Shown piece by piece: positions 6,187-62,753 of a stretch of 64,000 bases of DNA; position 1 is the stretch's first letter; the number at the start of each line of letters is the position of its first letter. Both the position numbers and the translations under genes were made by a program. The notes below the pieces were generated by a model. That model saw only the letters and a list, made by a program, of their open reading frames with translations, was not told the DNA's origin and did not search any database. The stretch comes from Gramella sp. MT6. GTDB taxonomy: Bacteria; Bacteroidota; Bacteroidia; Flavobacteriales; Flavobacteriaceae. The stretch covers positions 1,707,001-1,771,000 of the forward strand of contig NZ_CP048410.1 of NCBI RefSeq assembly GCF_019357415.1, written 5' to 3'.

Positions 6187-6246
6187 CCAATTGGTTATCA
6201 GTAATTTTTAAGAAAGTTTCAATTCATTGTTTATCTTTAACTCAGG

Positions 6247-6955: not shown

Positions 6956-8245
6956 ATGTTATTGATCTATACCCAGAAAATCACCCCAAGGATTATATAT
7001 GTGTTCAAGCATATTTGTACTCATATCCTGGGGATTCCAATTAAATTCACTTCTAAAATTGAGGAATTTATCGCTCACGATGGTGCTAAACTATCGTATG
7101 GCAGACAGGCTTTGGGAAATGAATTTTTTATTCAGAATGTAGACCTTTTGATAGAGCAGGGTTTTTCTGAACTTGAAATAAAAGTACAGCCCTGGGATGA
7201 TACTATTTGCTTTTTTCCGTTACCGGAAGCCAGTGATCTTCCCTTTGATATTTTCGCAGCCTCTTTTTATTTATTGAGCAGGTACGAGGAATATCTTCCA
7301 CATGTTAAAGATGAAGAAGGAAGGTTCCCAGCTTCAGAAAGTCTGGCCTCCCAGGAAAGTTTTTTACACAAACCCGTGGTAGATATCTGGGCTATAAAGT
7401 TCCGGGAAATTCTTTTAAATCGTTTTCCTAAGCTCGAATATTCTGATAGAAAATATAAAGTAGGAACTATTGTAGCTTCAGAAAATACTTTCATTTTTAA
7501 GAATAAGGGCTTCTTAAGAAGTTTTGTGGGGATGTTTTCAGACCTTTTTCAGTTTCAGCTGGGTAAAGTTATAGACAGGCTGCAGGTTTGGATAAGGATC
7601 AAGGATGATCCTCACGATATTTTCGAGGATCTTATAGATTTGATCAAACAGCATAAAATATATATGTTGTTCATGTTTCAGCTAAGTGACTTCTCCCTTT
7701 ACGACCGTAATATAAGTCATAATAGAATTCCTCATCGTGCGGTTATAAAATCTGTGGCAGATTACGCAAAAGTTGGTCTGCTTATGGGGTATTATGCAAT
7801 GGAGAATATTAAAAGCTTGCGTAAGGAAAAGTTAAGGATGGAGGAGATCATTCATATTCCTGTTGAAAACGTGATGAACTCTAAATATAATCTGCGGTTA
7901 CCAGATCAATATAATAATTTAACCGAACTGGAAATAAATAATGATCATTCTATGGGATATCCCGATGTGCCCGGTTTTAGAGCCGGTACGTGTACCCCAT
8001 ACTTGTTCTATGATATCAATATGGAAGTAACTACCCCGCTCAAAGTTCATCCATATGCTTTTAATTCTGCGGTTGCAGAAGATATGACAAAGACTAAACT
8101 TAAGGAGGATCTAGCACGAATGTTGTTAGAGGTTAAAGAGGTAAAAGGAATGTTTCGCGGAGTATTTAGAAACCAGGATTTTTCAAATTACTCGAATAAA
8201 GAGTATTACTATTCACTTTTAAAGCAGATTCATGAAATTGGATAA
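6956..8245 (+). CDS. Polysaccharide deacetylase-like protein (NodB residues not evident)
   Basis: About 429 residues from the ATG at 6956 (MLLIYTQKITPRI). The frame stays open upstream to 6923, but that would overlap radC, so the internal ATG is preferred. The protein resembles a flavobacterial family usually annotated as polysaccharide deacetylase: an N-terminal domain with HDGAKLSYG, then a barrel-like half ending in DHSMGYPDVPGFRAGTCTP. The canonical NodB metal ligands are not obvious: where TFDDG would be expected I see IVASENT, and there is no HxxxH. It may therefore be a non-catalytic or altered relative. Its 3' end overlaps the next gene by 14 bp, so the two are probably co-translated. 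No signal peptide is seen. Confidence 0.65.
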   Translation: MLLIYTQKITPRIIYVFKHICTHILGIPIKFTSKIEEFIAHDGAKLSYGRQALGNEFFIQNVDLLIEQGFSELEIKVQPWDDTICFFPLPEASDLPFDIFAASFYLLSRYEEYLPHVKDEEGRFPASESLASQESFLHKPVVDIWAIKFREILLNRFPKLEYSDRKYKVGTIVASENTFIFKNKGFLRSFVGMFSDLFQFQLGKVIDRLQVWIRIKDDPHDIFEDLIDLIKQHKIYMLFMFQLSDFSLYDRNISHNRIPHRAVIKSVADYAKVGLLMGYYAMENIKSLRKEKLRMEEIIHIPVENVMNSKYNLRLPDQYNNLTELEINNDHSMGYPDVPGFRAGTCTPYLFYDINMEVTTPLKVHPYAFNSAVAEDMTKTKLKEDLARMLLEVKEVKGMFRGVFRNQDFSNYSNKEYYYSLLKQIHEIG

Positions 8246-8921
8246 TATAGAACACGTTTTTTTTGATCTGGACCATACTCTATGGGATTTTGACAAGAAT
8301 TCTGAACTGGCTTTCAGGGAAATTTTTGAAAAGCAAAAGATCACTATAAATATTGAAGAATTCCTGGAGGTTTATAAACCTATTAATTTCAAATATTGGG
8401 AGCTTTACAGGAATAATTCGGTGAGTAAGGTGGATCTTCGCTTTGGAAGGTTAAAGGAAAGCTTCGATTCCTTAAAATTTCAAACCCAGGATACTACTAT
8501 TAATCTTATAGCCGATGATTATATTGAATACCTCCCAAAAAATAATCACTTATTGGATGGAAGCCTCGAGCTTTTAAATAATTTAAAGGACAGGTATAGA
8601 TTGCATATTATCACTAATGGATTTGAAGAGGTTCAGGAAAGAAAAATGAGAGGCTCGGGTATTCATGAATTTTTTGAGACTATTACTACTTCTGAAGAGG
8701 CTGGAGTAAAAAAACCACATCCACAGATATTTCAAATCGCTGTAAACAAGAGTGGGGCAGAAGTCTCGAAATCTGTGATGATAGGTGATAATTTGGAGGC
8801 AGATATTATAGGAGCTCACAACTTTGGATTACAGGTTATTCATCTAAATTCTCATGACCAAAGTATTCAGAGTCAGTACCCTCAGGTTCAAAAGTTAAAT
8901 GAACTTCTAAATTATTTATAG
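8232..8921 (+). CDS. YjjG-type HAD pyrimidine nucleotidase
   Basis: 229 residues. All HAD-superfamily motifs are visible: motif I FFDLDHTLWDF with the nucleophile D12 and acid/base D14, motif II IITNGF, the motif III lysine in GVKKPHPQIF, and motif IV MIGDNLEADIIGA. Length and motif spacing fit the YjjG group, which dephosphorylates non-canonical pyrimidine nucleotides as house-cleaning. The exact substrate cannot be read from the sequence. It starts inside the 3' end of the deacetylase-like gene (14-bp overlap). Confidence 0.8.
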   Translation: MKLDNIEHVFFDLDHTLWDFDKNSELAFREIFEKQKITINIEEFLEVYKPINFKYWELYRNNSVSKVDLRFGRLKESFDSLKFQTQDTTINLIADDYIEYLPKNNHLLDGSLELLNNLKDRYRLHIITNGFEEVQERKMRGSGIHEFFETITTSEEAGVKKPHPQIFQIAVNKSGAEVSKSVMIGDNLEADIIGAHNFGLQVIHLNSHDQSIQSQYPQVQKLNELLNYL

Positions 8922-8963
8922 TAACAGGGATTAGGTATTTTCGTGCGCAAATAAAAAAGTTAG

Positions 8964-9515
8964 GTGTCGCATTTAAGATTTATAAAAAAAATTATACCAG
9001 GAATCATTTTTGGATTCCTCCTAACTTCATGTTTTAAAGATGTCGATTTTGGGCAGGCAGAGAATATTGCTCTGGAGCCAGATCTTGAGGTCGATCTTTT
9101 ATTCTATCAATTGAACGAGACAGATTTTCTTGATTCAGAAACCGGTCAATTTACTCCAGTTATACGTGATACTGTAAGGCTTGAATTTCTAGATGATGAC
9201 TATATCCAGGATGGCTTGATGTATGCGGCGCTAAGATTCAGGCATGAAAATAGGTTTCCGTATGAGATTAAAAGCAACATAAGATTTTTAAGGGAGAATA
9301 ATAGAAACCAGTTCAATGTGGCCTATATAATTCCGGCAGGATCTGAAACTTCATCCTCAGTAGTAGATACTACTCATGTACTGCAGGGAAATGATATAGT
9401 TGATATACGCCGTTCTATTAAAATGGTGATTGAATTAGAAGTGAAAGGGGCCAATGAAAGCCTGGAAGGCGAATTAGATTTTATGTCAAAAGGACTGTTC
9501 AGGTTTGAATTTTAA
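8964..9515 (+). CDS. Lipoprotein of unknown function
   Basis: 183 residues from a GTG start. A short hydrophobic leader ends in the lipobox LLTSC (C23), followed by FKDVDFGQ, so the protein should be lipid-anchored. The mature part is rich in Asp/Glu and beta-prone, with no recognisable catalytic motif. It sits 42 bp after the HAD gene and its stop is 1 bp before the likely ATG of the DUF5723 gene, suggesting a cell-envelope operon with the next two genes. I do not recognise the family beyond its recurring position next to DUF5723 proteins in Flavobacteriaceae. Confidence 0.7.
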   Translation: MSHLRFIKKIIPGIIFGFLLTSCFKDVDFGQAENIALEPDLEVDLLFYQLNETDFLDSETGQFTPVIRDTVRLEFLDDDYIQDGLMYAALRFRHENRFPYEIKSNIRFLRENNRNQFNVAYIIPAGSETSSSVVDTTHVLQGNDIVDIRRSIKMVIELEVKGANESLEGELDFMSKGLFRFEF

Positions 9516-9516
9516 T

Positions 9517-10926
9517 ATGCAGAGAATTTTACTGGTCATTATGATATTTTGTACCATTATTTGTAGTGGGCAAAATAGGCCACTCCTATATAATGTAGAT
9601 GATCTGCCTCAGTCTTTGCTTCAAAATCCCGGCGCTCGAATAGATTTTACCAGGCATGTAGGAATACCATTTTTTTCTCAGATCCATTTATCTGCGGGCT
9701 CAACAGGTGTTACCGCTTATGATGTCTTTGCTGATGATGGTTCAGATGTAAACGATCGCGTTAGGAATATTATGCAGGATATTACCGCTGGGGATTATTT
9801 TTCTGTCAACCAGCAAATTGAAATTCTTTCTTTAGGCTGGAAAGTTGGCGATAGAGGTTACTTCTCCACTGGGATTTACCAGGAGTTAGATGTTTTTGCC
9901 TATTTTCCTAAAGATCCGGCTATATTGGCATTTGAAGGTAATGCCGATTATATTGGGCAGGATTTTGATTTTTCTGATGCTAATTTTACGGGAGAAATTT
10001 TAACGGTTTACCACGCTGGTTTCAACTATAAAGTAGATGCAAAACTAACAGTTGGAGGAAGGTTGAAATTATACTCAGGAATCTTTAATGCTGAAAGTAT
10101 CGATAACGAAGGTGTTTTCAGGACCATAGAGACACCTGGAGGCCCCAATTTTTATCGCCATGAGGTAAGTGGCCTCAATGTAAGGGTGAACACTTCTGGT
10201 TATGCCTCCTTGAAGGATGAAGAGGATATGACAGTGGATAAGGCGGTAGCAGAATTACTAAGTAGATCAATGTTCGGGCAGAACGCCGGAGTAGGATTTG
10301 ATCTTGGTTTTAATTACAGAGTGACAGATCAATTTTCTGTAAACGCATCGGTACAGGACCTTGGCTTGATGTTTCATCAGAAAGATGTTGAGAACTATAA
10401 TTATTTTGGATCTTTTCAAACTAATGGATTGGAGCCATTATTTCCTGAATTGGACGGTAATGAACCTACGATCCCGTACTGGGAAATTTTTGAAGAGAGA
10501 GTTGATATTAGTTTACAGGATGAGACAACTAATAACGGATATACAACCTGGAGGCCGTTAAAGTATAATGCCTCATTTCAATTCGGTACCGGCAAATCCA
10601 TACTTCCCTGTGATTATTTGATCAGTAAGAAGCCAAGATTTATGAATTTGTTCGGAATGCTTATTTCAGGGGTTAACCGGCCTAAAGGGCCTACTTATGG
10701 AGTCACCGCCTACTGGGATAGAAAAGTTACTGATAATTTAAGATTTCGTCTCGCTTATGCTGTAGATGAATACAGTTTGACCAAGTTGGGATTTATGGTA
10801 TCTTCAAGATTTAAAAATTTTAATATTTATCTTGCGGCTAACGATATAATTGGATATACTAATTTAGCGAAAGCTAACAGCGCTTCCCTGCAATTCGGGA
10901 TGCAATTTATTTTTAAAGATTTATGA
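9517..10926 (+). CDS. DUF5723 outer-membrane beta-barrel-like protein
   Basis: About 469 residues from the ATG at 9517. An in-frame TTG at 9505 lies inside the upstream gene and is less likely. The signal peptide is MQRILLVIMIFCTIICSGQ. The mature protein shows alternating hydrophobic/polar strands and Gly/aromatic-rich segments (VGFDLGFNYRVTDQFSVNASV) and ends in a strand with a terminal aromatic (LQFGMQFIFKDL), as expected for an outer-membrane barrel. It matches the flavobacterial DUF5723 family, of unknown function. Its end overlaps the following start by 4 bp (ATGA), so the pair is probably translationally coupled. Confidence 0.75.
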   Translation: MQRILLVIMIFCTIICSGQNRPLLYNVDDLPQSLLQNPGARIDFTRHVGIPFFSQIHLSAGSTGVTAYDVFADDGSDVNDRVRNIMQDITAGDYFSVNQQIEILSLGWKVGDRGYFSTGIYQELDVFAYFPKDPAILAFEGNADYIGQDFDFSDANFTGEILTVYHAGFNYKVDAKLTVGGRLKLYSGIFNAESIDNEGVFRTIETPGGPNFYRHEVSGLNVRVNTSGYASLKDEEDMTVDKAVAELLSRSMFGQNAGVGFDLGFNYRVTDQFSVNASVQDLGLMFHQKDVENYNYFGSFQTNGLEPLFPELDGNEPTIPYWEIFEERVDISLQDETTNNGYTTWRPLKYNASFQFGTGKSILPCDYLISKKPRFMNLFGMLISGVNRPKGPTYGVTAYWDRKVTDNLRFRLAYAVDEYSLTKLGFMVSSRFKNFNIYLAANDIIGYTNLAKANSASLQFGMQFIFKDL

Positions 10927-11762
10927 AAAAGTTACTAATAGCATTATTCATTTTTGGTGGAGTTTTCACTTCATCAGCACAAAATATTAATGAATATAAA
11001 TATATTCTAATTCCTGAAACCTTTGAATTCACTGGTGAGGTGAACCAATATCAATTGAATTCCCTGTTCAAATTCTTATTTGAGCAGGAAGGTTTTAATA
11101 CGGTTATGAAGTCTGCAGATAAGCCACAAGACCTGGCTGTAAATTCCTGTCTAGGTTTAAAGGCCAATCTTAAAAATAATTCTGGATTGTTTGTGACCAA
11201 ATTGGTAATAGAATTAGAAGATTGCCAGGGAAAGGTAGTTTTTAAAAGCAAGGAGGGTAGGAGTAGAGAGAAAGATTTCAAGTTAGCTTACCATGAAGCC
11301 TTAAAAGATGCTTTTACCTCAGTAGAAGAATTGGATTACGAATATGTTCCGGGGGAAACTTCTGTGGTCAATAATTCTAATGAAATGAATTCAGCAAAAG
11401 AGACGGTGAAAGTTACTTTAGGTGCTGAAGTTGCCGCAAACCCGGTTAATACAGATACAGTTGCGGAAGAAAATATCGAAACAACCACGCCAGCACCAAA
11501 GACTGGTTCTGAAATGAAATATCTAAATGCCGGGAAAACTTTTTTTCTGAAGAAAACTTCTCAGGGTTATAATTTGTTTCAGGAAGGATCTACCGAACCA
11601 ATCGCAATTCTATTAGAATCTGAAGGTGGAAAAAGCTTCATATATAACTCCTTAACAAAACAAGGGATTGGTTATTTTGACGCGGAGAACAACCTGATGG
11701 TTGAATATTTTGATCGTGAAAAAAATAATAAGGTTACCCTGAAATATGAAGTAATGGATTAA
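10923..11762 (+). CDS. Exported protein of unknown function
   Basis: 279 residues with a clear signal peptide (MKKLLIALFIFGGVFTSSAQ). The first ~120 residues look like a folded domain (NEYKYILIPETFEFTGEVNQ). A low-complexity Thr/Ala/Glu/Pro linker follows (around residues 150-195), then a C-terminal beta-rich domain (KYLNAGKTFFLKKTSQGYNL). The ATG overlaps the DUF5723 stop, so the two are likely coupled and act together at the envelope. The 3' end overlaps the convergent rarA gene by 4 bp, with no room for a terminator between them. No enzymatic motif recognised. Confidence 0.7.
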   Translation: MKKLLIALFIFGGVFTSSAQNINEYKYILIPETFEFTGEVNQYQLNSLFKFLFEQEGFNTVMKSADKPQDLAVNSCLGLKANLKNNSGLFVTKLVIELEDCQGKVVFKSKEGRSREKDFKLAYHEALKDAFTSVEELDYEYVPGETSVVNNSNEMNSAKETVKVTLGAEVAANPVNTDTVAEENIETTTPAPKTGSEMKYLNAGKTFFLKKTSQGYNLFQEGSTEPIAILLESEGGKSFIYNSLTKQGIGYFDAENNLMVEYFDREKNNKVTLKYEVMD

Positions 11763-13033
11763 TATCCATATTTCTTCTGCCAGCGTTTTCTTAAAAATTC
11801 TCTTTGGGCATTTTCCCGTTGGTTATTGCCAGGATTATAGAGCGTGGTATTCTTAATTTCATCTGGCAAAAATTCCGCAGCGACGAAATTGCCTTCATGA
11901 GTATGGGCATATTTATAGTCTTTTCCATAACCAATGTCCTTCATAAGTTTAGTTGGAGCATTCCTGATTGAAAGAGGAACAGACAGGTTGCCAGTTTTTT
12001 TAACCAGACGCTGGGCTTCATTTATCGCCATATATGCTGCATTGCTTTTTGGAGATGTAGCCAGATAGGTTACGCATTGGCTTAGAATTATTCTCGCTTC
12101 AGGATATCCAATCGTATTTACAGCCTGGAACGAGTTGTTGGCAATCACAAGGGCCGTTGGGTTGGCATTTCCAATGTCTTCACTAGCCAGGATAAGTAGC
12201 CTTCTGGCAATGAATTTCACGTCTTCACCGCCTTCGATCATCCGGGCAAGCCAGTATACTGCTGCGTTTGGATCACTTCCCCTAATAGATTTAATAAAGG
12301 CAGAGATAATATCATAATGCTGTTCACCTGTTTTGTCGTAAAGCACAGTATTTTGCTGAACTTTGGAAAGTACGAGGTCATTAGTGATTTCTACATTTTT
12401 ATCTGCTGAGGTAACTAATAGCTCAAAAATATTTAAAAGTTTTCTTGCATCTCCGGCGCTCAATCTAAGCAGAGCTTCGGTTTCCTTTAATTTTACATTT
12501 TTAGCGGCAATGATCTTGTCCTCTTTCATAGCTCTTTCCAACAAAGCTACGAGGTCATCCTTAGAAAAAGGTTTAAGAATATACACCTGGCACCTTGAAA
12601 GAAGTGCGGAGATCACCTCAAAACTTGGGTTTTCGGTTGTTGCGCCAATAAGGGTCACCCATCCTTTCTCGACCGCTCCCAATAAAGAATCCTGCTGTGA
12701 TTTACTAAATCTATGAATTTCATCGATAAAAAGAATTGGGCTCTTTGTGGTAAAAAGGCCTTCACTCTTTTTAGCTTTCTCGATGACTTCCCTAACATCC
12801 TTTACACCACTGCTAATGGCGCTAAGTGTAAAGAATGGTCTTCCAGATTCTGTAGCAATAATATTGGCAAGGGTAGTCTTCCCTACGCCAGGAGGGCCCC
12901 AAAAGATCATAGAAGGGATCATCCCCTGTTGGATCTGCTGTCTTAAAGCTCCATTTTCGCCTATTAAGTGCGATTGACTTAGGTAATCATCTAAGGTTTT
13001 TGGTCGGAGTCTCTCAGCAAGAGGTTGATTCAT
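11759..13033 (-). CDS. rarA: Replication-associated recombination protein A (RarA/MgsA AAA+ ATPase)
   Basis: 424 residues, standard length. RarA is a tetrameric clamp-loader-like ATPase acting at stalled forks and on single-stranded DNA ends. Visible: the N-terminal RPKTLDDYLSQSHLIGENG, Walker A GPPGVGKTT, Walker B ILFIDEIHRF, sensor region GATTENPSFEV, arginine-finger region LLSRCQVY, and the C-terminal tetramerisation part with SEDIGNANPTAL and GYGKDYKYAHTHEG. Only 13 bp separate its start from the first possible start of the divergent rhomboid gene. It converges on and overlaps the upstream operon by 4 bp. Confidence 0.93.
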   Translation of the reverse strand: MNQPLAERLRPKTLDDYLSQSHLIGENGALRQQIQQGMIPSMIFWGPPGVGKTTLANIIATESGRPFFTLSAISSGVKDVREVIEKAKKSEGLFTTKSPILFIDEIHRFSKSQQDSLLGAVEKGWVTLIGATTENPSFEVISALLSRCQVYILKPFSKDDLVALLERAMKEDKIIAAKNVKLKETEALLRLSAGDARKLLNIFELLVTSADKNVEITNDLVLSKVQQNTVLYDKTGEQHYDIISAFIKSIRGSDPNAAVYWLARMIEGGEDVKFIARRLLILASEDIGNANPTALVIANNSFQAVNTIGYPEARIILSQCVTYLATSPKSNAAYMAINEAQRLVKKTGNLSVPLSIRNAPTKLMKDIGYGKDYKYAHTHEGNFVAAEFLPDEIKNTTLYNPGNNQRENAQREFLRKRWQKKYGY

Positions 13034-48553: not shown

Positions 48554-49837
48554 ATGTCTAAAACAGCGACACTCGAATTTGACGGAAAGAAATATGAGTT
48601 TCCCGTTACCGTGGGAACCGAAGATGAAATAGGGATAGATATTAAAAAGCTACGTGCGGAAGCAGGTCTTATTACTTTAGATCCTGGATTTAAGAACACT
48701 GGAAGCTGCGAGAGTGCTATCACATTTTTGGACGGTGAAAAGGGTATTTTAAGATACCGCGGTTATGCGATTGAAGATCTTGCGGAAAAAGCAGATTTTC
48801 TTGAAGTAGCGTATTTGTTGATCTTCGGAGAATTACCAAACAAACAACAACTAGAAAAGTTCACGAAAGATATTAAAGAGCAATCTCATGTAGATGAAGA
48901 AATGAAGAAGATCCTTGATGGATTTCCGAAGTCTGCTCACCCAATGGGAGTTCTTTCTTCTTTAACAAGTGCTCTAATAGCTTTCAATCCATCTTCTGTA
49001 GATGTCTCTTCTGAAGAAGATATGTATAAGGCTATAGTAAAGATCTTAGGTAAATTCCCGGTACTTGCTGCATGGACATTAAGAAAGAAAAATAGTCTTC
49101 CGCTAAATTATGGAGATGAGGATCTTGGTTATGTAGAGAACCTTCATAAAATGATGTTCGAGAAGCCTAACAAGACATATAACGTAGATAAGGCTGTTAT
49201 TGATGCATTAGATAAACTATTGATATTACACGCAGATCATGAGCAAAACTGTTCTACTTCTACCGTGAGAATGGTTGGTTCTTCTCATGCAGGCCTGTTT
49301 GCATCACTTTCTGCAGGTATTTCTGCTCTTTGGGGACCACTTCACGGTGGAGCAAATCAGGCAGTGATAGAAATGCTAGAAAAGATCAAGGAAGACGGTG
49401 GAGATACTCACAAATTCATGCAAAAGGCTAAGGACAAGGAAGATCCTTTCCGTTTAATGGGCTTTGGTCACCGAGTTTATAAGAATTTTGATCCTAGAGC
49501 TAAGATCATTAAGAAATCTGCAGATGAGGTTCTTGGTCAGTTAGGCGTTGAAGATCCTGTTCTTGATATCGCAAAAGGACTCGAGAAAGAAGCTTTAGAA
49601 GATGATTACTTCGTAAAAAGAAAATTATATCCAAACGTAGATTTCTACTCAGGAATCATTTATCGTGCACTTGGAATTCCTGTAGATATGTTTACCGTAA
49701 TGTTTGCTTTAGGTAGACTTCCAGGATGGATCGCTCAATGGAGAGAAATGAGATTGAAGAAAGAACCAATTGGTCGTCCACGTCAGATTTACATAGGTGA
49801 AAATCATAGAGATTTTAAACCTCTTGGAAGCAGATAA
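48554..49837 (+). CDS. gltA: Citrate synthase (type II)
   Basis: 427 residues, the length of hexameric type-II enzymes. It condenses acetyl-CoA with oxaloacetate in the TCA cycle. The N-terminal beta-rich extension (ATLEFDGKKYEFPVTVGTED) is the type-II feature. Catalytic regions: LHADHEQNCSTSTVRMVGSS, WGPLHGGANQAV, the His in GFGHRVYKNFDPRAK, and the Asp in NVDFYSGIIYRALG. 269 bp without a gene precede it; I saw no consensus -7 box, only TAATTTAG near 48507. A strong terminator follows. Confidence 0.97.
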   Translation: MSKTATLEFDGKKYEFPVTVGTEDEIGIDIKKLRAEAGLITLDPGFKNTGSCESAITFLDGEKGILRYRGYAIEDLAEKADFLEVAYLLIFGELPNKQQLEKFTKDIKEQSHVDEEMKKILDGFPKSAHPMGVLSSLTSALIAFNPSSVDVSSEEDMYKAIVKILGKFPVLAAWTLRKKNSLPLNYGDEDLGYVENLHKMMFEKPNKTYNVDKAVIDALDKLLILHADHEQNCSTSTVRMVGSSHAGLFASLSAGISALWGPLHGGANQAVIEMLEKIKEDGGDTHKFMQKAKDKEDPFRLMGFGHRVYKNFDPRAKIIKKSADEVLGQLGVEDPVLDIAKGLEKEALEDDYFVKRKLYPNVDFYSGIIYRALGIPVDMFTVMFALGRLPGWIAQWREMRLKKEPIGRPRQIYIGENHRDFKPLGSR

Positions 49838-49863: not shown

Positions 49864-49900
49864 AAAAAGCTCCATGGTACTCATGGAGCTTTTTTATTTT
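49864..49900. terminator. Bidirectional terminator between gltA and the GT2-GH26 gene
   Basis: A 13-bp perfect stem, AAAAAGCTCCATG / CATGGAGCTTTTT, with a GTACT loop. It ends gltA on the plus strand; its right arm touches the stop codon of the minus-strand gene at 49894, so it probably ends that transcript too. Confidence 0.85.
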
Positions 49901-52900
49901 TCGGCGTATATCAATGGTGTGTTGAGTTTTGTAATGGTTCGCATAACATAATCCTCAGAGGGGGATTTTACAGTTAGTAGCAATCGGTAAAACTCGTAAT
50001 TATTAGGAACCTTTAATGATAGCTCAGGACTAGTGCCTAATTTTTTTAGGGCTAGAGGATTATTGAAAGTATCAGTTTTAATAAGAGTCCATTCATATAG
50101 ATAATCCTTTTCAATTTTACTCCCATAAAACCACTGGTCTTTTGCAAACAACATTGCCTGGTAAGTAACTTTTTCTGACGGAATCAAGGGAACTGCAGGT
50201 TTTAAGATTTTTATCTTGATCTCGTTTTCATTATTCGTTAATTCTTTATTCCAGTAATTGCTTAGATTTTTAAAATTTTCTTTTTTTCTTCCTTCAAAAT
50301 CCAAAAGTCCGTCAAAACTTAATCTATTACTCAGTCTCTCATCCTGCCAGTTTTCCAGGATTATTGGTGCTTGGTATAATTTCATATTATCTGATAAATC
50401 GGATGGGATAGAGCTTATGATTACCGGGATATCATTGGTTATGGCAAAACTTATGGTTTCCTTTAAATAGCTGGTGTCCTTCACCTTTAGACCAAAATAA
50501 TCTACCGGTAGATTATTTCTAAGTTCCTTCATCAGAGCCTTGGTATCGGCATTTAACTCAATCTCCAGGATTATAGGAATTCTTATATTTCTCGCCTTTA
50601 TTCTTGAAAAAACCTTACTGTACCAGTGCACCCTGGCGTCTCTTTCATGAAAAAGAAAAGGTTTATTGAAATCCAAATCAGATTGCAGAATAAAAGAAAA
50701 AGCGATTAGGTTTTGATATCTTTTAATTTCCTCAATTTTGTCCAGAATTTCACTTTCCAGTTCTTTAAGTTCAGTTTGATCTGTTAGGAAGTCCTGAGGG
50801 ATTATAGATTGAAAACTGTAAAAGATATTAATATTCTCTGCCTCAGCATATTTCAGAGTATTATAATCGTAGATATTACCGCCAGGATAATGAATAGTAT
50901 TAAGGTTATTTTTCTTCATCAGCCTAAAATCTTCTAACAAAGTTTTGCGACTTAGGACATAATAATTGTCTTTCCAGTTTAATCCTTTTTTGTACCGAAC
51001 TCCAATTGGATTTCCCTTTATTTTCAATTGCTCATCAAAATTTACGATTATCTCACTTTTGGGATTGAAATTGGACATTTCTGTTTTTTGGTCTTTCTCA
51101 AAAATATTAATAGAATCTGTGGTCCAATCCAGGTATTTTTCAGGGTAGGGTTTTCCAACCGGTATATTATTGTCGTAAGCGCTATTGAACATTACTACCG
51201 CAGCAATTTCCTGAAAATTGCTATTTATGGAATTAGCGGCGTTTTGAAGCCATTTGGATTGGTAGTCTTGATCATTGGGATGTTTAACAGATCCAAATTC
51301 AGCAAGCATTACTGGTTTTTTTGTGAACCAGTATAATTTATCATGAAAACTTTGATATAATTTCTCGAAGGAAAAGGTTTTTCCAGACCTATTGAGTGAG
51401 CCATAATTTAAAAGGGTAATGCCTATCCAGTCTACGTATTCGTCTCCGGGATAGAAATGTTTCATACCTTTTGCCTTCCATGGGTTCCAGACAAAAATGG
51501 TCTTATAAGCTCCCTGATCTTTTAAGATCTTATAAACATGTTTCCAGGCAGATTTAAGTTCTTCCGGTAAATTTCCTCTTGTTTGGCTCCAGGGATATTG
51601 GGGATTATCAAATTCATGGGCAAATCTTAGAAAAACTGGTTTGTCGTAATTCGCAAGATCTTTTCCGAAATTGGAAATATATATATCAAATTCTCCGCTT
51701 GAAATCCGCTGTAGTATGCTTTTTTGTTCATTAGAAATTGAATCCACTGATGTAGCAAGCCAGGGCTCCCAGGTGATCATGGGGACTGCTCCCATTTGTG
51801 CAATAGAATCCAGTTTTTTTTTGGGGAAATTTTTCGTGTTGTTTTTATCCCAGGCCAGATATAGAGAAATAATATCGAAATCGATATTTTGCTTTTTTTC
51901 AATATGACCTATCTGGTTAAGATTTACAGTTCCAGTATCTCTGTCTGGATGGTATATTCCTAAATAGAATTCATTTTTTATTTCAGAATATTGAGGTGAA
52001 ATATGATCCCATCTGGCTTTATCGTGCTTTTGTTTTAATCCTAAAGAACCAATCAAAAGAAATAGGAGTAAGGGTAATGCCGTGAACCTGGTGATCGTAA
52101 ATAATGAATTTCCAGTTCGAAATAATTTAGATCTTAAAGAGTCGAGGTCTGTTAGGATCTCCTTGTTTAAATTATTCTTTAATATATTATTTTCGTTCGT
52201 AATTTTTATAGTGAGATAAATACCTAATATCATTATTATGGCATTAAAAATCGCAAAGCCAGACATCACTAGACTGAAAGGAGTAAAATCTCTGAAAAGT
52301 CCAATAATAACTGCAGAAATAGATAATAATGCCACAACCGTGTTAGGTATGATTATTTTAAGATTAGTTGCAAATTCATTTTCTTTCGGGGTAGGTAAAT
52401 AGGGAATATTTTTATTTATAAGAGTATAGAAAAGACCTAAGAGGTAAATCCACCAGGTGTTGATTTCCAGAAGACCGCCTATTAAATGAAATCCCCTTTC
52501 TTTTTTATCGATAACCCATTTCTGAATAAAGGTTCTAATTAGAATGGAGCTTGCTACAACTGGCAAAAGAACCAGTCCGAAATCAATTACATTTCCAGCC
52601 CATGGGGTAATTGAAAATAAAAGTGAGATTATGGGAATTAGAAAATTTATTAAATATATAACCCCGCTTAAGTAATGAAGTGGAAGTATTCCAAAATGGA
52701 TTTTTTGGCGTACCGTGAACTTTTGAAAGAGTTTTGGATAAACCTTGAATAGAAGATCGAAAGTTCCTCTTGCCCATTTAAGTTGTTGTTTGAAATAGCT
52801 AGTCAAATTAGATGGAGCGAGCCCCTGAGCCAAAACTTTTGGAACATATATGGCTTTCCAGCCCTTGGCATAAAGCTTCATCGCTGTATGCATATCTTCA

Positions 52901-53670
52901 CAAAGTCCCGGGGCGTGGCCTCCTATACTATCTAAAGCGGATCTTCTGAAAATGCAATTAGCTCCTATGGCATTCACACTTTCATATGAATTGAGAGTCA
53001 TCATCATGGGACCATAGAACTGGAATGTTTGTTCTGCAGCTCCACGTGCTACTAAGGTTTCCTTTGTATTGTAATATCCTTGTACGGTTTGTACAAATCC
53101 AATTTTTGGATTTGAGAAATATGGTATTGTTTCATCAAGAAAATCTGCATCAGGAATATGATCCGGATCTAGTATCACCGCAATTTCTCCTCTGGCAGCT
53201 TTTTTTAACGCGTTATTGATATTTCCTGCCTTGGCATCTATTCGGTTGTCCCTGGTTACATGATGAATTCCGTGTTCTTTACAGAATTTCTTAAGAAAAG
53301 GATCATTAGCCTCATCACATAGGAAGGTTTCATGAGGATATTTAATATTCAATATGGCCTCCAGGGTAGTAATGATCATTTGTCTTGGTTCACCTGGAAA
53401 ATAAGTAGTCAAAACATCTACTGTAAACTCTTTTTTCGTTTCCGGAACTTTTGGGATCGATATGTTGGAATAGTTATACCATAAATAGAGCTTTTTCAGC
53501 ATTCCGTAAAATAGACTGATCAGTAGAAGGATGAAAAGAAATAAATTACCCCGATATTCTTCATTGAAAAAAAAGAAAATGAAGTTAAGGATGCTTACGA
53601 TCCCCAGCAGGATCAAAAATTTAATGATCCTGTCCTCATTTTTCGTTGGTGCTTTTATACTATTCCTCAT
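49894..53670 (-). CDS. Membrane GT2 glycosyltransferase fused to a GH26-like hydrolase and a second TIM-barrel
   Basis: 1258 residues. Residues ~15-57: two membrane segments. ~80-305: cellulose-synthase-like GT2 domain with D119 region FLCDEANDP, DPDH (168-171), CEDM (257-260, the ED acid/base site) and QQLKWARG (295-302, where the canonical QxxRW reads QxxKW). ~330-546: five or six more membrane segments. ~556-850: GH26-like barrel with FLRFAHEFDNPQYPW (E686, acid/base) and KPVMLAEFGS (E791, nucleophile). ~880-1125: a second barrel resembling GH2/GH5 (GVRYKKGLNW, HYPGGNIYD, IILENWQDE with E1106) but with no NE at the acid/base position. The end is a beta-sandwich-like module. Likely role: inner-membrane synthesis of a beta-glycan with periplasmic trimming or transfer. 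The polymer is unknown; GH26 relatives suggest mannan or mixed-linkage glucan. Overlaps the upstream lipoprotein gene by 11 bp. Confidence 0.85.
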   Translation of the reverse strand: MRNSIKAPTKNEDRIIKFLILLGIVSILNFIFFFFNEEYRGNLFLFILLLISLFYGMLKKLYLWYNYSNISIPKVPETKKEFTVDVLTTYFPGEPRQMIITTLEAILNIKYPHETFLCDEANDPFLKKFCKEHGIHHVTRDNRIDAKAGNINNALKKAARGEIAVILDPDHIPDADFLDETIPYFSNPKIGFVQTVQGYYNTKETLVARGAAEQTFQFYGPMMMTLNSYESVNAIGANCIFRRSALDSIGGHAPGLCEDMHTAMKLYAKGWKAIYVPKVLAQGLAPSNLTSYFKQQLKWARGTFDLLFKVYPKLFQKFTVRQKIHFGILPLHYLSGVIYLINFLIPIISLLFSITPWAGNVIDFGLVLLPVVASSILIRTFIQKWVIDKKERGFHLIGGLLEINTWWIYLLGLFYTLINKNIPYLPTPKENEFATNLKIIIPNTVVALLSISAVIIGLFRDFTPFSLVMSGFAIFNAIIMILGIYLTIKITNENNILKNNLNKEILTDLDSLRSKLFRTGNSLFTITRFTALPLLLFLLIGSLGLKQKHDKARWDHISPQYSEIKNEFYLGIYHPDRDTGTVNLNQIGHIEKKQNIDFDIISLYLAWDKNNTKNFPKKKLDSIAQMGAVPMITWEPWLATSVDSISNEQKSILQRISSGEFDIYISNFGKDLANYDKPVFLRFAHEFDNPQYPWSQTRGNLPEELKSAWKHVYKILKDQGAYKTIFVWNPWKAKGMKHFYPGDEYVDWIGITLLNYGSLNRSGKTFSFEKLYQSFHDKLYWFTKKPVMLAEFGSVKHPNDQDYQSKWLQNAANSINSNFQEIAAVVMFNSAYDNNIPVGKPYPEKYLDWTTDSINIFEKDQKTEMSNFNPKSEIIVNFDEQLKIKGNPIGVRYKKGLNWKDNYYVLSRKTLLEDFRLMKKNNLNTIHYPGGNIYDYNTLKYAEAENINIFYSFQSIIPQDFLTDQTELKELESEILDKIEEIKRYQNLIAFSFILQSDLDFNKPFLFHERDARVHWYSKVFSRIKARNIRIPIILEIELNADTKALMKELRNNLPVDYFGLKVKDTSYLKETISFAITNDIPVIISSIPSDLSDNMKLYQAPIILENWQDERLSNRLSFDGLLDFEGRKKENFKNLSNYWNKELTNNENEIKIKILKPAVPLIPSEKVTYQAMLFAKDQWFYGSKIEKDYLYEWTLIKTDTFNNPLALKKLGTSPELSLKVPNNYEFYRLLLTVKSPSEDYVMRTITKLNTPLIYAEK

Positions 53671-54988
53671 TACCAGGTTTTAATACATAAAAAGGAATAT
53701 TTGCAGTAGCGTAGTATTCAGTGTCATCGGTTAGATATAAAAAAAGACGGTACGGACCTTCTTTTTCTGGAGTTTTAAAGCTTACTTTTTGACCGTCTAT
53801 TTTGAACTCGGAATTGGAAATAACTTCACTTTCCTTTACTGTAAACCAGGATTCCTGTCTTATTTCCCAGTGGAAATTCAATTTTTGTTCTTTTGAATCT
53901 GGTAATTTTACCTCAGCATTAGCTCTTGTTTGAGAAGGGAGAACAATACTCCGATTTGCCCCTTTATTATTTAGGAGTATATAATCTAATTCAGGGCCAG
54001 AATAATTTGCATTATTATTTTTCCAAATTTTAGAGAGTTCAAAAACTGCCTGAGTTTTTAAGTTGTTTTTTCCATATAGGCTATACCACGTTGGTGTGAA
54101 TTCATTTTTAGTACCCCAGTAGAATACAAAACTTCCTAAGGAGCCTTTACCTTTCATTGGTTCTATAAATTGGAAATACCTTTCTCTAATTTGTTCTGCT
54201 TTTTTTGTACTGGTTTCTTCAATAGGTACATTCCATTCTGTAAAGGACGCCTCCCAAGGTCCATTTACTCCCCATTCAGATATAACATGTGGCCCATCCC
54301 AAACAGGAGAAATTGGGGCCAATTTTTTAGAAAACTGACTCAATACTCCGAATGAATTAAATGAAATGAAATCGAGTTGTGGACTTTTAGTAATTATAGA
54401 AAGTACTCTTGATTTGTTCGCTCCTATTGTTGTTGTGCTAACCGGATGGTTAGTATCTAATTGATGAATTAAATCTATTAATTGATTGTAATTTTCATAA
54501 AAGACAGTGTTTTTATAGAGGTATGGATAGAAAAGTTCATTACCCAGATTCCAGTAAAGTAATGCTGGGTGGTCCTTATGCTTTTGTACTAATTGATTTA
54601 CTTTTAATTTTAATTGATTAAACAATTCTTCTTGTTCCCAATATTCTGAAGATCTGTCAAATTTTGGTAACGGAATATCTACCGCAACAGCTAAACCCAG
54701 GGAATAGGCTTTATCCAAAGTCCTTTTAAGGTAAAGAGTATCATAAATCCGTGCGGTATTTGCTCCGGCTTCTTTTAATTGCTCTAAATATTCCGGTTCT
54801 GCTCCTGCACCTTTTATATAAAATTGTTCACCATTGCGAATAAGCGTGTAACCTTCGTCTGTTTTTTCAAAATGTACGGTAGCAGAATGATTGGCACACT
54901 GCTCCTCATCACATGCAAATGTGAAGAATAATAGCGCCCCTGTAAGAATTTTTAAACTAAGCTCTTTTAGAAAATAGATTTTAAGCAA
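53660..54988 (-). CDS. Glycoside-hydrolase-like lipoprotein (GH2/GH5-type TIM barrel)
   Basis: 442 residues from a TTG start (no ATG is available before the leader). The leader ends in a lipobox-like FTFAC (C26), so it is probably membrane-anchored. A TIM barrel follows: YIKGAGAEPEYLEQLKEAGA, ARIYDTLYLKRTLDKAYSLG, then WNLGNE with acid/base E151 and HVISEWG with nucleophile E238, the clan GH-A signature. The last ~110 residues form a beta-rich module (FHWEIRQES ... YRLFLYLTDD) resembling the C-terminus of the adjacent GT2-GH26 protein. Expected to hydrolyse or transglycosylate the polymer made by that partner; substrate inferred only from context. It is the first gene of the two-gene operon. 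Confidence 0.75.
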   Translation of the reverse strand: MLKIYFLKELSLKILTGALLFFTFACDEEQCANHSATVHFEKTDEGYTLIRNGEQFYIKGAGAEPEYLEQLKEAGANTARIYDTLYLKRTLDKAYSLGLAVAVDIPLPKFDRSSEYWEQEELFNQLKLKVNQLVQKHKDHPALLYWNLGNELFYPYLYKNTVFYENYNQLIDLIHQLDTNHPVSTTTIGANKSRVLSIITKSPQLDFISFNSFGVLSQFSKKLAPISPVWDGPHVISEWGVNGPWEASFTEWNVPIEETSTKKAEQIRERYFQFIEPMKGKGSLGSFVFYWGTKNEFTPTWYSLYGKNNLKTQAVFELSKIWKNNNANYSGPELDYILLNNKGANRSIVLPSQTRANAEVKLPDSKEQKLNFHWEIRQESWFTVKESEVISNSEFKIDGQKVSFKTPEKEGPYRLFLYLTDDTEYYATANIPFYVLKPGNEE

Positions 54989-55164: not shown

Positions 55165-56076
55165 ATGAACTTGCATGTAACCAATGAAACTTCAAAACTT
55201 AAAACGGTAGTTCTGGGTACCGCAGAGAGTAATGGTCCTATTCCTACTCTGGAAGAGGCGTATGATCCTAAATCTAAGGAGCATATAAAAGCTGGAACTT
55301 ACCCTAAAGAGGAAGATATGGTCAAGGAAATGGAGGCCGTGGCCTCTGTTCTGAAAAAATATAATGTTGAGGTTTACAGACCTAAAATAATCCAAGATTA
55401 TAATCAGATCTTTACTCGGGATATCGCATTTGTGATCGATGATAAATTTATTAAGTCCAATATTTTACCAGATCGCGGACAGGAGATCGAGGCAATAGAT
55501 CACGTTCTGAAACAGATAGATCCTTCTAAAATAATTACTTTGCCAGAGGATGCTCATATTGAAGGGGGAGATGTAATGCCAATGGGCGATCACATTTTTG
55601 TGGGAACCTATAAAGGTAAAGATTATAAGAATTTTATAACTGCAAGAACGAATCTCAAGGCAGTGGAGGCTTTACAGCAGATCTTTCCAGAAAAAAAGAT
55701 CGTATCCTTCAGTCTTAAAAAATCTAATACAATAGCAATAGACAATGCCCTTCATCTGGACTGTTGTTTTCAACCAGTAGGAAAGGATAAAGCGATCATT
55801 TATAAAGATGGTTTCCTTATTGAAGAAGAATACCAGTGGCTGGTTGATTTCTTCGGAAATGCTAATATTTATGAGATCACAAGGGATGAAATGTATAATA
55901 TGAATTCTAATATATTTTCGATCTCTGAAGATGTAGTGATTTCTGAAAAAGGTTTTACCAGGCTTAATTCATGGTTGAGGGAGCAGGGAATTACAGTCGA
56001 GGAAGTTCCATATGCCGAAATTTCAAAGCAGGAAGGATTATTACGGTGTTCTACGCTACCTCTAATTAGGGAATAA
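55165..56076 (+). CDS. Arginine deiminase / dimethylarginine dimethylaminohydrolase family protein
   Basis: 303 residues. The guanidino-modifying fold is recognised by its catalytic set: FTRD (D86), EGGD (133-136), HLDC (H197) and the active-site Cys in LLRCSTLPL (C295). Members hydrolyse arginine to citrulline, hydrolyse methylated arginines, or transfer amidino groups. The short length and the lack of an extra domain seem more like a DDAH/hydrolase form than classical ArcA (~400 residues). It sits 7 bp before ctlX, which would use citrulline, supporting a two-step route from arginine (or a derivative) to ornithine. The exact substrate is unproven. Confidence 0.8.
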   Translation: MNLHVTNETSKLKTVVLGTAESNGPIPTLEEAYDPKSKEHIKAGTYPKEEDMVKEMEAVASVLKKYNVEVYRPKIIQDYNQIFTRDIAFVIDDKFIKSNILPDRGQEIEAIDHVLKQIDPSKIITLPEDAHIEGGDVMPMGDHIFVGTYKGKDYKNFITARTNLKAVEALQQIFPEKKIVSFSLKKSNTIAIDNALHLDCCFQPVGKDKAIIYKDGFLIEEEYQWLVDFFGNANIYEITRDEMYNMNSNIFSISEDVVISEKGFTRLNSWLREQGITVEEVPYAEISKQEGLLRCSTLPLIRE

Positions 56077-57071: not shown

Positions 57072-59555
57072 TTATTTCGTTGCTACTTCAGAAGATTTGA
57101 CTGTAGAATCAACTTGATGCGCTCCAATATCATCATTTGTATTTCCTACAAGGTTTCCAAAGTAATCTCTGCTACCTGTATTGTTTAGTCCTACACCTCC
57201 GTTAATTGCTGAAGAGGTTGATTGTAGTAAGTAAGCATTTAGATTAGAAATGCTGTTTCCAAAACCAATGATACCTCCATTTCCAGCATCATTCAGAAGT
57301 GGGTCTGCCTGTATTCCTGAATTTGTTCCATTGTAAACTTCATTCCCGCTGCTTCTAAAATCTTCCAGAGAAGTATAATTCTGTCCTTTATATGCAATGT
57401 TGAACGAAGACGAAGAATAGTATAGGTTACCGGCAAAATAACCGTCATAACCTGAAGGGATACTTACCAGGTCTGCTCCATTTGCGGCATAGAGGATATT
57501 ATTATAGAAATTAATATTATCCTTTACCGGCTTCCAGTAAATATATTTAATATTAGCTGAAGTTGTATTGGTGCTTTGTTCGCTAAGATATAATGTGTTG
57601 TTGTAAACATGGATATCACTCATGGTACCGTTGTTTCCGTTAAATAGATAAACACTTCCTCCATTAGTGGCTGCATCATTCTCACTTACATTATATCTAA
57701 TTGTGATATTTTTCATTGGCCTGGCGCCTGTAAACTGACCTACCATAAATCCTGCACCATCATTATCATGAGAGTAGTTGTATTGCATGATACCGTTTGT
57801 AACTCCGCCATCCATATCAAATCCACCACCGTCACATCCAGTTCCCGAACTAATATTGTAGGCTTCAGAAAATTGAATAGTCACCTGGTCTGAATCCCAG
57901 TACCATATTCCTACCGGGCCTCCACAGTTCGTATTACCACTTCCACAATCATAAACGGTAGAATGTTCTATTACCGATTTTTGAACATCAGAAAGGAGAA
58001 TTCCGTTCCCGGAATGCTTATTTTTATTATATCCCTTAATATTGAAGACCTCGCAATTTCGTACGGTAATATTGGAATGAGCATATCCGGTTTTTGAAGA
58101 TGAGAAATATCCAAAAGAAGAGATTCCTACATCTAAGCAGTCGTGAACTTTATTATTCTCAATTAAAACATTGGTAAATCCTGAATTACCGTTATATGCT
58201 CCAATAACGATCCCGAATTCACGGAAACCATATACCTCGGTGTTAGTAACTTCAATCAGGTCTAATTTAACATCTCCGGGAAGGTCATTATAGAAGTATA
58301 TCCCTGAATTGGTGTTGGTATTCATTCCGCTTCCTTCTATGATAAGATTATCAACCCTTATTCCCGAAGTGTTATAAGCATAAATACCGTATTCATTACC
58401 GGCATTGATCTTTGCTCGTCCGGTACCGTAAGAGGAGATTAATATAGGATTTGCACTATTATTCGCATCTCCAGAGTCCAGGTAAATGTTTCCAGAAAAT
58501 TCTTCTCCTCCTTTAAATAGTACTTTATCTCCAGGATTGATTTTTAAATTGTTAAGCTTTTCGATGCTTTGCCAAGCATCATCAGGAGATAACCCAGTAT
58601 TACCGTCATTCCCGCTTTTACTTATGAAATAGGTTTTATTAGGGCATGTACTATCGCTTTTGAATTCTCCCTCTATGCTTCCAAAGTTTTCATAGTTGAG
58701 ATCAAAATTTCCCGCAAGTGTTGAGCATCTTTCCCCACTGGTTTGATTCGAAGTATACCTGTGTACGCCAGACCACTCCAGATTTTGATTAGTTCCATTT
58801 TCACCGCTCCTGTAAACACAGAAGGTATAATCTGAATTTGTAGTACATGTTTGTTGCGTAACAACCTTGGTTTCTTCAAGAGAAACTACCAAAGCCTGAA
58901 TATTGATATTCGTAGTACCGTCAGCTGTCGTAAGCAGCATATTGAAGGTTCTTTCATCATTGTTAAGGACAATTCCATTAAGGGGAGAATCCTGGTCCTG
59001 GCAATTAGTGCATTTATAGGTTCCAGTAATAGGGGTAACACTGGTATTGGTCGTTTCTTCCGCTACGATAATGGTACCTTCCTGCTTTTTAAAAACTACA
59101 TCGGAGATTATCGGTTCATTATTTTCATTTACTGTAAAATTAAAACTGAAATCTTCAGAATCGAATTTTGCAAGTACATCTGAGCTTTTAATAGGACCTT
59201 CTGATTGTTTTACTTCTACCACTTCAGCTTTAAATTTCTCACCACCGGCCAGGGTTATTATACCATAGGTGTCCTGATCCATTGATGAAATTTGATCAAG
59301 GTTTCGAGGTGCTTTTAATATAAAAGTTCCTCGATACTCAGATCTCGAAGTGGCAAAAATACCCTTATAGGTAGAAATCTTGCGGTCTCCCTCCTGTGTA
59401 AGGTCATTTTCATTAACTATCTGCTCTTCGTCCTGGATCAGATCATCTGGATCTGAGGAACATGCTGAAAAGATCACCAAAGTCAGGAATAAACAGGTAG
59501 TATTAATAAAAATCCTGATCCAATGGGATATTGAATTATAGCTAGTAGGGGTCAT
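57072..59555 (-). CDS. Lipoprotein with a right-handed parallel beta-helix
   Basis: 827 residues. Leader ends IFSAC (C32), followed by SSDPDDLIQDEE, so it is probably a surface lipoprotein. Residues ~60-300 form a less familiar N-terminal part with Cys pairs (YKCTNCQD, CTTNSDYTFCVYRSG, GERCSTLAGNFDL). From ~310 (TYFISKSGNDGNTGLSPDDA) to the end is a parallel beta-helix with many NxTxxxNxV-type coils (DNLIIEGSG, NVLIENNKVHDC, NITVRNCEVF, HVYNNTLYL). Beta-helices of this kind are lyases, epimerases or binding proteins; I see no clear catalytic triad. Its neighbours do not name a substrate. The C-terminal DDIGAHQVDS is typical of this domain. Confidence 0.75.
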   Translation of the reverse strand: MTPTSYNSISHWIRIFINTTCLFLTLVIFSACSSDPDDLIQDEEQIVNENDLTQEGDRKISTYKGIFATSRSEYRGTFILKAPRNLDQISSMDQDTYGIITLAGGEKFKAEVVEVKQSEGPIKSSDVLAKFDSEDFSFNFTVNENNEPIISDVVFKKQEGTIIVAEETTNTSVTPITGTYKCTNCQDQDSPLNGIVLNNDERTFNMLLTTADGTTNINIQALVVSLEETKVVTQQTCTTNSDYTFCVYRSGENGTNQNLEWSGVHRYTSNQTSGERCSTLAGNFDLNYENFGSIEGEFKSDSTCPNKTYFISKSGNDGNTGLSPDDAWQSIEKLNNLKINPGDKVLFKGGEEFSGNIYLDSGDANNSANPILISSYGTGRAKINAGNEYGIYAYNTSGIRVDNLIIEGSGMNTNTNSGIYFYNDLPGDVKLDLIEVTNTEVYGFREFGIVIGAYNGNSGFTNVLIENNKVHDCLDVGISSFGYFSSSKTGYAHSNITVRNCEVFNIKGYNKNKHSGNGILLSDVQKSVIEHSTVYDCGSGNTNCGGPVGIWYWDSDQVTIQFSEAYNISSGTGCDGGGFDMDGGVTNGIMQYNYSHDNDGAGFMVGQFTGARPMKNITIRYNVSENDAATNGGSVYLFNGNNGTMSDIHVYNNTLYLSEQSTNTTSANIKYIYWKPVKDNINFYNNILYAANGADLVSIPSGYDGYFAGNLYYSSSSFNIAYKGQNYTSLEDFRSSGNEVYNGTNSGIQADPLLNDAGNGGIIGFGNSISNLNAYLLQSTSSAINGGVGLNNTGSRDYFGNLVGNTNDDIGAHQVDSTVKSSEVATK

Positions 59556-61316: not shown

Positions 61317-62753
61317 TTAAGTTTTTTTCCCTCCCTTGGCAATTCTATTGATCATCCCTTCAAATATGAAGAAGTGAAAAGGATACATTGCGTACCAGTA
61401 TGCTCTGCCTAATAAGCCTTTTGGTCTAAAAGTAGCATTTTGGTGTAGAACATTCTTATCGTCTATCTTAAATTCCAGCCAGGCTTCCCCCGGTACCTTC
61501 ATTTCTGCGAAAAGCAATAATCTTTTTTCTTCTTTATCGGCAAGTAAGACTCTCCAGAAATCCAGGGAATCTCCTGCATTTATCTTATTCGGATTGGTTC
61601 TTCCTCTTCTTAGTCCCACTCCGCCGGCCAGTTTATCCAGGTAACCTCTCACTTTCCAAAGCCAATTTCCATAATACCACCCGTTGAGACCGCCAATGGC
61701 CCAAACGCGCTCTAAAGTTTCCTCAGGATCATCAACCTTCACAGATTTTTTATCCTGAAGGCAGCCATATTTTGGGATCTGAACATATTTATTAAGTTCT
61801 TTTCTAAACCTTCCGCTGCTTAAAGAATCTTTCCAGCTGGAGATCACCTCGTTTTGCTCGATCTTATAAAAAGCAAGTTTAATTGCCTCTTTATAGGGAA
61901 TAAGGTCAATATTCAATAATTCCTGAAGACGGGTATCGCTAGTGATAACTTCTACAGACATGCTGTCCACAAGATTCTGGGCTAGTTTGTAAGAGGTTGA
62001 GGTGACAAAATATAACCAGTAAGAACTAAGTTTAGGAGACATGAAGGGAACCCCTATTATCCAGATCTTCAATCCGCGTACTTCGGCATATTGTTCCATC
62101 ATCTCCTGGTAGGTAAGTACATCCGGTCCACCAACATCGAAGGATTTATCATAACACTTTTCGTTGCCAATCACTCCGGTGAGAAATTGTATGATGTTCC
62201 TTATAGCAATAGGCTGTGATTTGGTTTTCACCCATTTTGGCGTGACCATTACAGGGAGCTTCTCGCAAAGGTCTCTGATGATCTCAAAGGAGGAACTTCC
62301 TGAGCCTACAATAATGGCAGCTCTTAATACCGTGAGGTGAAATTTGCCCTTATAAAGGATCTCTTCAACAGCTTTTCTCGACTTTAAATGCTTGGAAAGT
62401 TTTTCTTCATTAATGATTCCGCTAAGGTAAATTACCTGATTCACCGAGGTTTCGGCCATCATCTTATTAAAGTTTTTGGCTGCTTCGGCTTCCTGCTTGT
62501 CGAAATCTTTAGTAGAAGCGGTCATGGAATGTATAAGATAATAGGCTACATCAATATCCTTTATCTTTTCGGGAGCTTTATGATCCTTCAGGAAGTCCAA
62601 TTCAACGATCTCAACTTTTTCTTTGAGTTCTTCATTGGAAGTAAATCGGTTTTTGTTACGAACCGCGCAAATAACTTCATGGCCCTGCTCGAGTAATTGC
62701 GGCAGAAGCCTCATTCCTATATAACCATTGGCACCCGTAACTAATATGCGCAT
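61317..62753 (-). CDS. SDR-type NAD(P)-binding protein with DUF2867 domain
   Basis: 478 residues. The N-terminal Rossmann domain has GANGYIG (7-13) and atypical-SDR features (DVAYYLIHSM, VNQVIYLSGI). The C-terminal ~150 residues (LERVWAIGGLNGWYYGNWLW, GDSLDFWRVLLADKEEKRLL) match DUF2867. Such two-domain proteins occur in many Bacteroidota; their reaction is unknown. It is followed 25 bp later by the BCCT gene, so the two may be co-transcribed. Confidence 0.8.
   Translation of the reverse strand: MRILVTGANGYIGMRLLPQLLEQGHEVICAVRNKNRFTSNEELKEKVEIVELDFLKDHKAPEKIKDIDVAYYLIHSMTASTKDFDKQEAEAAKNFNKMMAETSVNQVIYLSGIINEEKLSKHLKSRKAVEEILYKGKFHLTVLRAAIIVGSGSSSFEIIRDLCEKLPVMVTPKWVKTKSQPIAIRNIIQFLTGVIGNEKCYDKSFDVGGPDVLTYQEMMEQYAEVRGLKIWIIGVPFMSPKLSSYWLYFVTSTSYKLAQNLVDSMSVEVITSDTRLQELLNIDLIPYKEAIKLAFYKIEQNEVISSWKDSLSSGRFRKELNKYVQIPKYGCLQDKKSVKVDDPEETLERVWAIGGLNGWYYGNWLWKVRGYLDKLAGGVGLRRGRTNPNKINAGDSLDFWRVLLADKEEKRLLLFAEMKVPGEAWLEFKIDDKNVLHQNATFRPKGLLGRAYWYAMYPFHFFIFEGMINRIAKGGKKT

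Follow-up and report, generated by a model that had tools for sequence, protein, structure and literature searches.

The window analyzed here, a 64,000-nucleotide stretch of Gramella sp. MT6 (positions 1,707,001 to 1,771,000 of NZ_CP048410.1, the single 3.77-Mb contig of this genome), contains a two-gene cassette in which a GT2 synthase is fused to a GH26 domain and accompanied by a GH158-type glucanase. The computed architecture comprises a BcsA-like GT2 domain with its channel, a further membrane segment, a CtLic26A-like GH26 domain with a conserved active site predicted to lie in the periplasm, a degenerate GH158-like domain, and a constant partner of the GH158 kind. On balance, these features somewhat favor the view that the cassette codes for a beta-glucan synthase of the inner membrane, to which chain processing in the periplasm is attached. 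The features are as follows, in window coordinates and with residues numbered within each protein:

49894..53670, minus strand: fused gene of 1258 amino acids, GT2 synthase with membrane helices, GH26 domain, and GH158-like domain (open reading frame, Pfam, structure model)
53470..53643, minus strand: two N-terminal membrane helices, residues 10-34 and 43-67, span 10-67 (model, hydropathy)
52717..53433, minus strand: cytoplasmic GT2 domain, residues ~80-318, with D119, DPD 168-170, ED 258-259, and QQLKW 295-299
52216..52713, minus strand: residues 320-485, with helices 320-352, 361-385, 437-460, and 464-485, interfacial helix 396-417, and gating-loop motif YLPTPK 424-429 (model, motif counts, hydropathy)
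52006..52104, minus strand: extra last membrane segment, residues 523-555, predicted to take the chain to the periplasm (hydropathy, model)
51088..51975, minus strand: lichenase-like GH26 domain, residues 566-861, with E686 (nucleotides 51613-51615) and E791 (nucleotides 51298-51300)
49903..51018, minus strand: degenerate GH158-like TIM barrel and beta-sandwich, residues 885-1256 (hhalign, conserved columns)
53660..54988, minus strand: partner gene of 442 amino acids, GH158-type beta-1,3-glucanase with an N-terminal signal or anchor helix, E151, and E238 (profiles, model, Foldseek)

The original prediction, made from the letters of the fused gene, had described a 1258-residue frame running from 53670 to 49894 on the minus strand, which is real, and the residues quoted in it are correct. 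Its central proposal, a GT2 domain and a GH26 domain of clan GH-A in a single chain, is supported by the structure model (which ends at residue 1148) and by fold comparison, which place the GH26 region inside that clan. The Pfam scan places GT2 families within residues 96-357, detects GH26 (PF02156) at residues 664-753, over the cut-off, and finds no PilZ domain in the fused protein. The N-terminal part has the characters of a processive BcsA-like GT2, namely the three catalytic Asp residues, a Q..W motif, a BcsA-like fold, and channel helices. Moreover, the proposed BcsA-like interfacial helix and the five membrane segments past the GT2 domain are likewise borne out by prediction, so that the GH26 region would be periplasmic and not cytoplasmic. 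The last membrane segment shows a hydropathy peak at residues 523-541 and is modelled as two helices (503-529 and 531-555), and its 19-residue hydropathy is at least 1.6 in 89% of the 195 sequences of the family alignment, which is composed of the window, 79 loci, and 115 database proteins longer than 1150 amino acids, with redundancy kept and truncated or broken frames left as they are. The second N-terminal helix reaches 1.6 in just 62% of 182 sequences.

Membership of the cellulose, curdlan, and mixed-linkage glucan synthase clades (BcsA, CrdS, and BgsA) is rejected for this synthase. According to the excerpted text of PMC6821405, the motifs QxxRW, QxPH/Q, and FxVTxK are fully conserved in those clades; the corresponding motifs here are QQ[LI]KW, QxVQ (with Val in place of the Pro of QxPH/Q), and Y-x-P/A-T-x-K, each in 195 of 195 sequences, and the KAG motif is retained in 194. 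Furthermore, the NCBIfam cellulose synthase model TIGR03030 matches residues 75-495 with 173 bits, well under its cut-off of 699, and the PilZ, BcsB, and BcsC models have no match anywhere in the complete genome. The nearest GT2 part among the loci belongs to Christiangramia gaetbulicola (88%). A plasmid search with the GT2 part of the window gave 620 records, none with 80% query coverage or more and all with less than 60% identity, and was not used further.

These results bear on the possibility that the product is a secreted exopolysaccharide, cellulose-like or mixed-linkage, whose chains the glucanases merely trim or release, as BcsZ does for cellulose. Cellulose synthases are accompanied by BcsZ-type glucanases, the channel is BcsA-like, and a lipobox-like motif in about half of the partner proteins (40 of 77, with a permissive pattern) suggests that some of them could act at the surface. 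Nevertheless, neither BcsC nor BcsB is matched in the genome and the clade motifs are altered in every sequence, and secretion of this kind is considered rather unlikely.

GH26 enzymes have a GH-A barrel, with the acid/base Glu in an R-x-x-H-E motif and a second Glu as nucleophile. In addition to its PF02156 match, the fused domain contains both residues (E686 and E791), aligned with the glutamates of its homologue CtLic26A, a lichenase (2bvd and others) that is its nearest relative by profile alignment and by fold. This lichenase leads the other GH26 matches by some 28 orders of magnitude (E-value) and by more than 7 Z units, and the mannanase reading of the domain, weaker by both measures, was rejected. 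The active-site set is intact in the window and in 160 of the 195 sequences; the GH26 alignment (A5) takes in four domains later classed as degenerate (L028, L036, L041, and L045). A polymer other than a glucan, e.g., a mannan or a beta-1,3-xylan, with a GH26 domain that keeps a commoner activity of its family, would be in line with the mannanases and beta-1,3-xylanases that also match the domain by profile comparison, but the lead of the lichenase and a constant partner of the beta-1,3-glucanase kind make it improbable.

This partner gene, the part of the locus most telling about the polymer, lies outside the coordinates of the original prediction, whose observation is confirmed and whose interpretation holds in part. 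It is located directly upstream on the same strand and overlaps the fused gene by 11 bp. Its product matches the PDB profiles 9oro (E 9e-95) and 6pal (E 3.1e-90) and, by phmmer over residues 39-436, approximately its whole length, GH158(Pro) (E 7.5e-50) and BuGH158 (E 4.2e-49). The model (pLDDT 93.1) has GH158 structures as its top Foldseek matches, with TM values of 0.76-0.86, and shows the characters of the family: a barrel with an Ig-like domain, an N-E acid/base pair, and a Glu nucleophile. In BuGH158, alanine changes in N136 and E137 (the acid/base pair) or in the nucleophile E220 abolish activity, as reported in the excerpt of PMC7157763, and these residues align with N150-E151 and E238 of the partner. 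All three are kept in 78 of 78 partner proteins, i.e., 77 of the 79 loci and the window, L033 and L056 being cut short.

Residues 885-1256 had been described simply as a second TIM barrel; its identity, which had been missed, is by profile comparison that of a degenerate GH158-like domain. Aligned with the upstream GH158 family by hhalign, it gives a probability of 99.1 and an E-value of 1e-18 over 337 columns, which makes it a diverged relative of the partner, while direct comparison of the two by BLAST or phmmer is too weak to use. It lacks the two catalytic glutamates of GH158: Glu is absent from all 33 columns with a conservation of at least 90%. The columns near the lost acid/base are gapped, and the loss also rests on the conserved-column count and on hhalign. 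Perhaps this domain serves as a chain-binding module.

A fusion both widespread and already characterized would have spoken against the original prediction. The fusion is indeed widespread, the same architecture occurring in other Bacteroidota genomes, but no characterization of it was found in the open-licence PMC full texts searched. The system is present in 9 of 296 genomes sampled evenly across the phylum, with two more weak matches; within the genus, 9 of 24 genomes have it. Both counts include the present genome. The 79 loci belong mostly to organisms that, from their genus names, we take to be Flavobacteriaceae, Chitinophagaceae, Sphingobacteriaceae, and Cytophagales-type bacteria. The GH158 partner is immediately upstream of the fused gene in all 79. 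Among neighbors within 8 kb (the first 40 clusters found in six or more loci), and with frames antisense to the two genes set aside, the next commonest family is a tandem-GH26 gene, in 24 loci; the others, named by eye, each occur in at most 14 loci and are either housekeeping genes common to Flavobacteriaceae or members of frequent families, SDR and SusC/SusD among them. The two-gene cassette behaves as a single evolutionary unit.

In the window, the cassette is flanked by genes named by eye as a citrate synthase (48554-49837) and an amidinotransferase-like protein (55165-56076). These two genes adjoin in 13 of 13 tested genomes of the genus without the system, out of 15 such genomes, two of low completeness (G384 and G392) having been left out. 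They also adjoin in G388 (L148), yet this genome carries the system, with the fused gene past a second amidinotransferase gene, a different place. As side observations, an 827-residue protein that contains a right-handed beta-helix domain is encoded on the minus strand past both amidinotransferase genes of the window (57072-59555), and an NAD-binding epimerase-like domain fused to DUF2867 is encoded at 61317-62753; six Flavobacteriaceae loci have a similar protein close to the cassette. Chitinophaga japonensis (L028) has two cassettes side by side (2901-6587 and 7944-11792), one of them with a degenerate GH26 domain.

The fused GH26 domain is degenerate or gone in 33 of the 79 loci (Dyadobacter, Mucilaginibacter, Larkinella, Runella, Ferruginibacter, and others), including six (L036, L041, L043, L045, L056, and L058) that hold both glutamates and were reclassed as degenerate because H685 is lost. 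Some genomes encode the separate tandem-GH26 protein (L064:11328-13025, L072:10885-12573, and others), of about 560 amino acids. Its N-terminus looks hydrophobic by eye, and of its two GH26 domains the first lacks RxxHE, whereas the RxxHE and EFG motifs are both intact in the second; PF02156 matches only 8 of 16 such proteins. In L005 and L006 the matches are weaker (387 and 380 bits, frames of 532 and 531 amino acids), and in L052 the gene is in two frames. The tandem gene is found in 24 of 33 genomes with a degenerate fused domain versus 7 of 45 others, the latter being the tested intact loci, among them the window and L028, without L008 and L033, whose fused domain is also intact; under the first criterion, glutamates alone, the counts were 22 of 27 versus 9 of 50. 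Fisher's exact test gives 4e-7, but the genomes are related by descent. The tree requires five changes for degeneration and eight for the tandem gene, with three usable independent pairs, in which the tandem gene on average varied the same way in 0.6, the opposite way in 0.1, and without difference in 2.3. The intact fused domain and the tandem gene coexist in L022, L023, L032, L038, and L042, which fits a gain of the separate gene followed by decay of the fused domain, on an unrooted tree that leaves the order of events unset.

Degeneration also raises the alternative that the fused GH26 domain is mainly a structural or binding module and that the upstream GH158 enzyme does the needed processing. 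This idea fits the contrast between the loss in 33 loci and the invariant E151 and E238 of the partner, as well as the presence of an already degenerate hydrolase at the end of the same protein. The intact active-site set in the window and most sequences, and the tandem gene that accompanies most of the degenerate cases, argue against it, and it is judged very unlikely.

The preferred reading, a beta-glucan synthase with attached periplasmic processing, can be framed as a mechanism. The GT2 domain would polymerize glucose, presumably donated by UDP-glucose, into a glucan that contains beta-1,3 bonds and is probably a (1,3;1,4)-mixed-linkage chain, since chains of this type are cleaved by the closest characterized relatives of the two glucanases. 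On leaving the channel, the chain would be gripped by the GH158-like domain, itself catalytically dead, and cut, or cut and re-joined through a retaining mechanism, by the GH26 domain and the GH158 partner; synthesis and trimming would be coupled in one polypeptide, as the original prediction proposed. The product, the weakest step, would be short or cyclic and mainly kept in the periplasm, like those of OpgGH and NdvB, and not a cellulose-like fibre, since PilZ, BcsB, and BcsC are unmatched. A bolder version, which we regard as speculative and doubtful, is a further, self-contained type of periplasmic glucan factory, in Bacteroidota, in which the GT2 enzyme makes a mixed-linkage beta-glucan, its own retaining lichenase domain closes or re-joins the chain by transglycosidase action, the dead GH158 barrel guides the chain, the GH158 partner sets its length, and GH26 moves between the synthase and the tandem gene.

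Several points weigh against the preferred reading. Firstly, the glucan activities and the UDP-glucose donor are predicted, and the GH26 family also holds mannanases and xylanases. Secondly, BuGH158 acts poorly on mixed-linkage glucan (excerpt of PMC7157763), so that the two glucanases may differ in their substrates. Thirdly, hydropathy alone leaves the interfacial helix undecided (at least 1.6 in 45% of the 195 sequences), and the screen for exporters consisted of the BcsC model in this genome alone, without a match. Lastly, the association between degeneration and the tandem gene is not significant after correction (five changes and three pairs, hence underpowered), and 9 of the 33 degenerate loci lack the tandem gene, which also counts against gain followed by decay and suggests that GH26 activity may be dispensable in some cases. 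In a PF02156 search of five of these nine, a strong GH26 gene apart from the fusion is present in three, while one has just the degenerate fused domain and one has no match. Such a separate gene is also found in two genomes with the tandem gene and is not specific.

Bacteroidota are known mostly as degraders of such glucans. If the preferred reading is true, it names a probable route of beta-glucan synthesis in this phylum, a simple two-gene system with synthesis and editing covalently coupled. Not every GH26 or GH158 gene of these genomes would then be degradative, and it would be misleading to count them as enzymes of polysaccharide use. Moreover, the clean presence or absence of the two genes within one genus would make the system genetically tractable.

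OpgH is a GT2 enzyme, while the cyclic beta-1,2-glucan synthase Cgs belongs to another glycosyltransferase family and makes another linkage, and is set apart from the fused protein by description, not sequence. Cgs resembles the fused protein as a multi-domain membrane protein and makes a cyclic periplasmic glucan (PMC10901819). OpgG-OpgH of E. coli is a comparable gene pair, coding for a glucanase of the periplasm and a synthase of the membrane, in which the GH186 beta-1,2-glucanase gene, in an operon with the synthase, is needed for periplasmic glucan (PMC10514313); however, its proteins are separate, the glucan is beta-1,2-linked, the hydrolase is GH186 and not GH26 or GH158, and the synthase has no fused hydrolase. 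BcsA (4hg6, 9fmz, and others) has in common with the fused protein the GT2 fold, the D/D/D catalytic residues, KAG, the helices of the channel, and the interfacial helix; the present system has no PilZ, BcsB, or BcsC match, has the three motifs altered throughout the family, and has hydrolases attached. The bacterial mixed-linkage glucan synthases BgsA (PMC5567048) and RiGT2 (PMC10374906), compared by description, are cellulose-synthase-like beta-glucan synthases with the type of product proposed here, and the excerpts mention no fused hydrolase. CtLic26A and BuGH158 (6pal, PMC7157763), homologues of the fused GH26 domain and of the partner, degrade external glucans, whereas their counterparts here accompany a synthase.

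A supposed GH5-GT2 precedent was dropped, as the term GT2 is absent from the text of the GH5 subfamily paper PMC3526467. Open-licence PMC full texts, a limited source, gave no paper on a GT2-GH26 fusion, nor on one that ends in a degenerate GH158-like domain and is paired with a GH158 partner. The combination is apparently undescribed, while fusions of synthase and hydrolase are of a known kind: the statement that GT2 synthases are usually separate from glycosidases has an exception in the GH17-GT2 "Orphan" BcsA-like protein of Pseudomonas and NdvB (PMC10237404), whose authors propose cleavage and cyclization of a beta-1,3-glucan. Like the fused protein, these combine a cytoplasmic GT2 domain, a membrane channel, and a periplasmic TIM-barrel hydrolase in one chain. 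GH17, found nowhere in the fused protein by the Pfam scan, precedes their GT2 domain, whereas in the Bacteroidota protein the GH26 and degenerate GH158-like domains follow it, behind an extra membrane segment and together with a GH158 partner gene.

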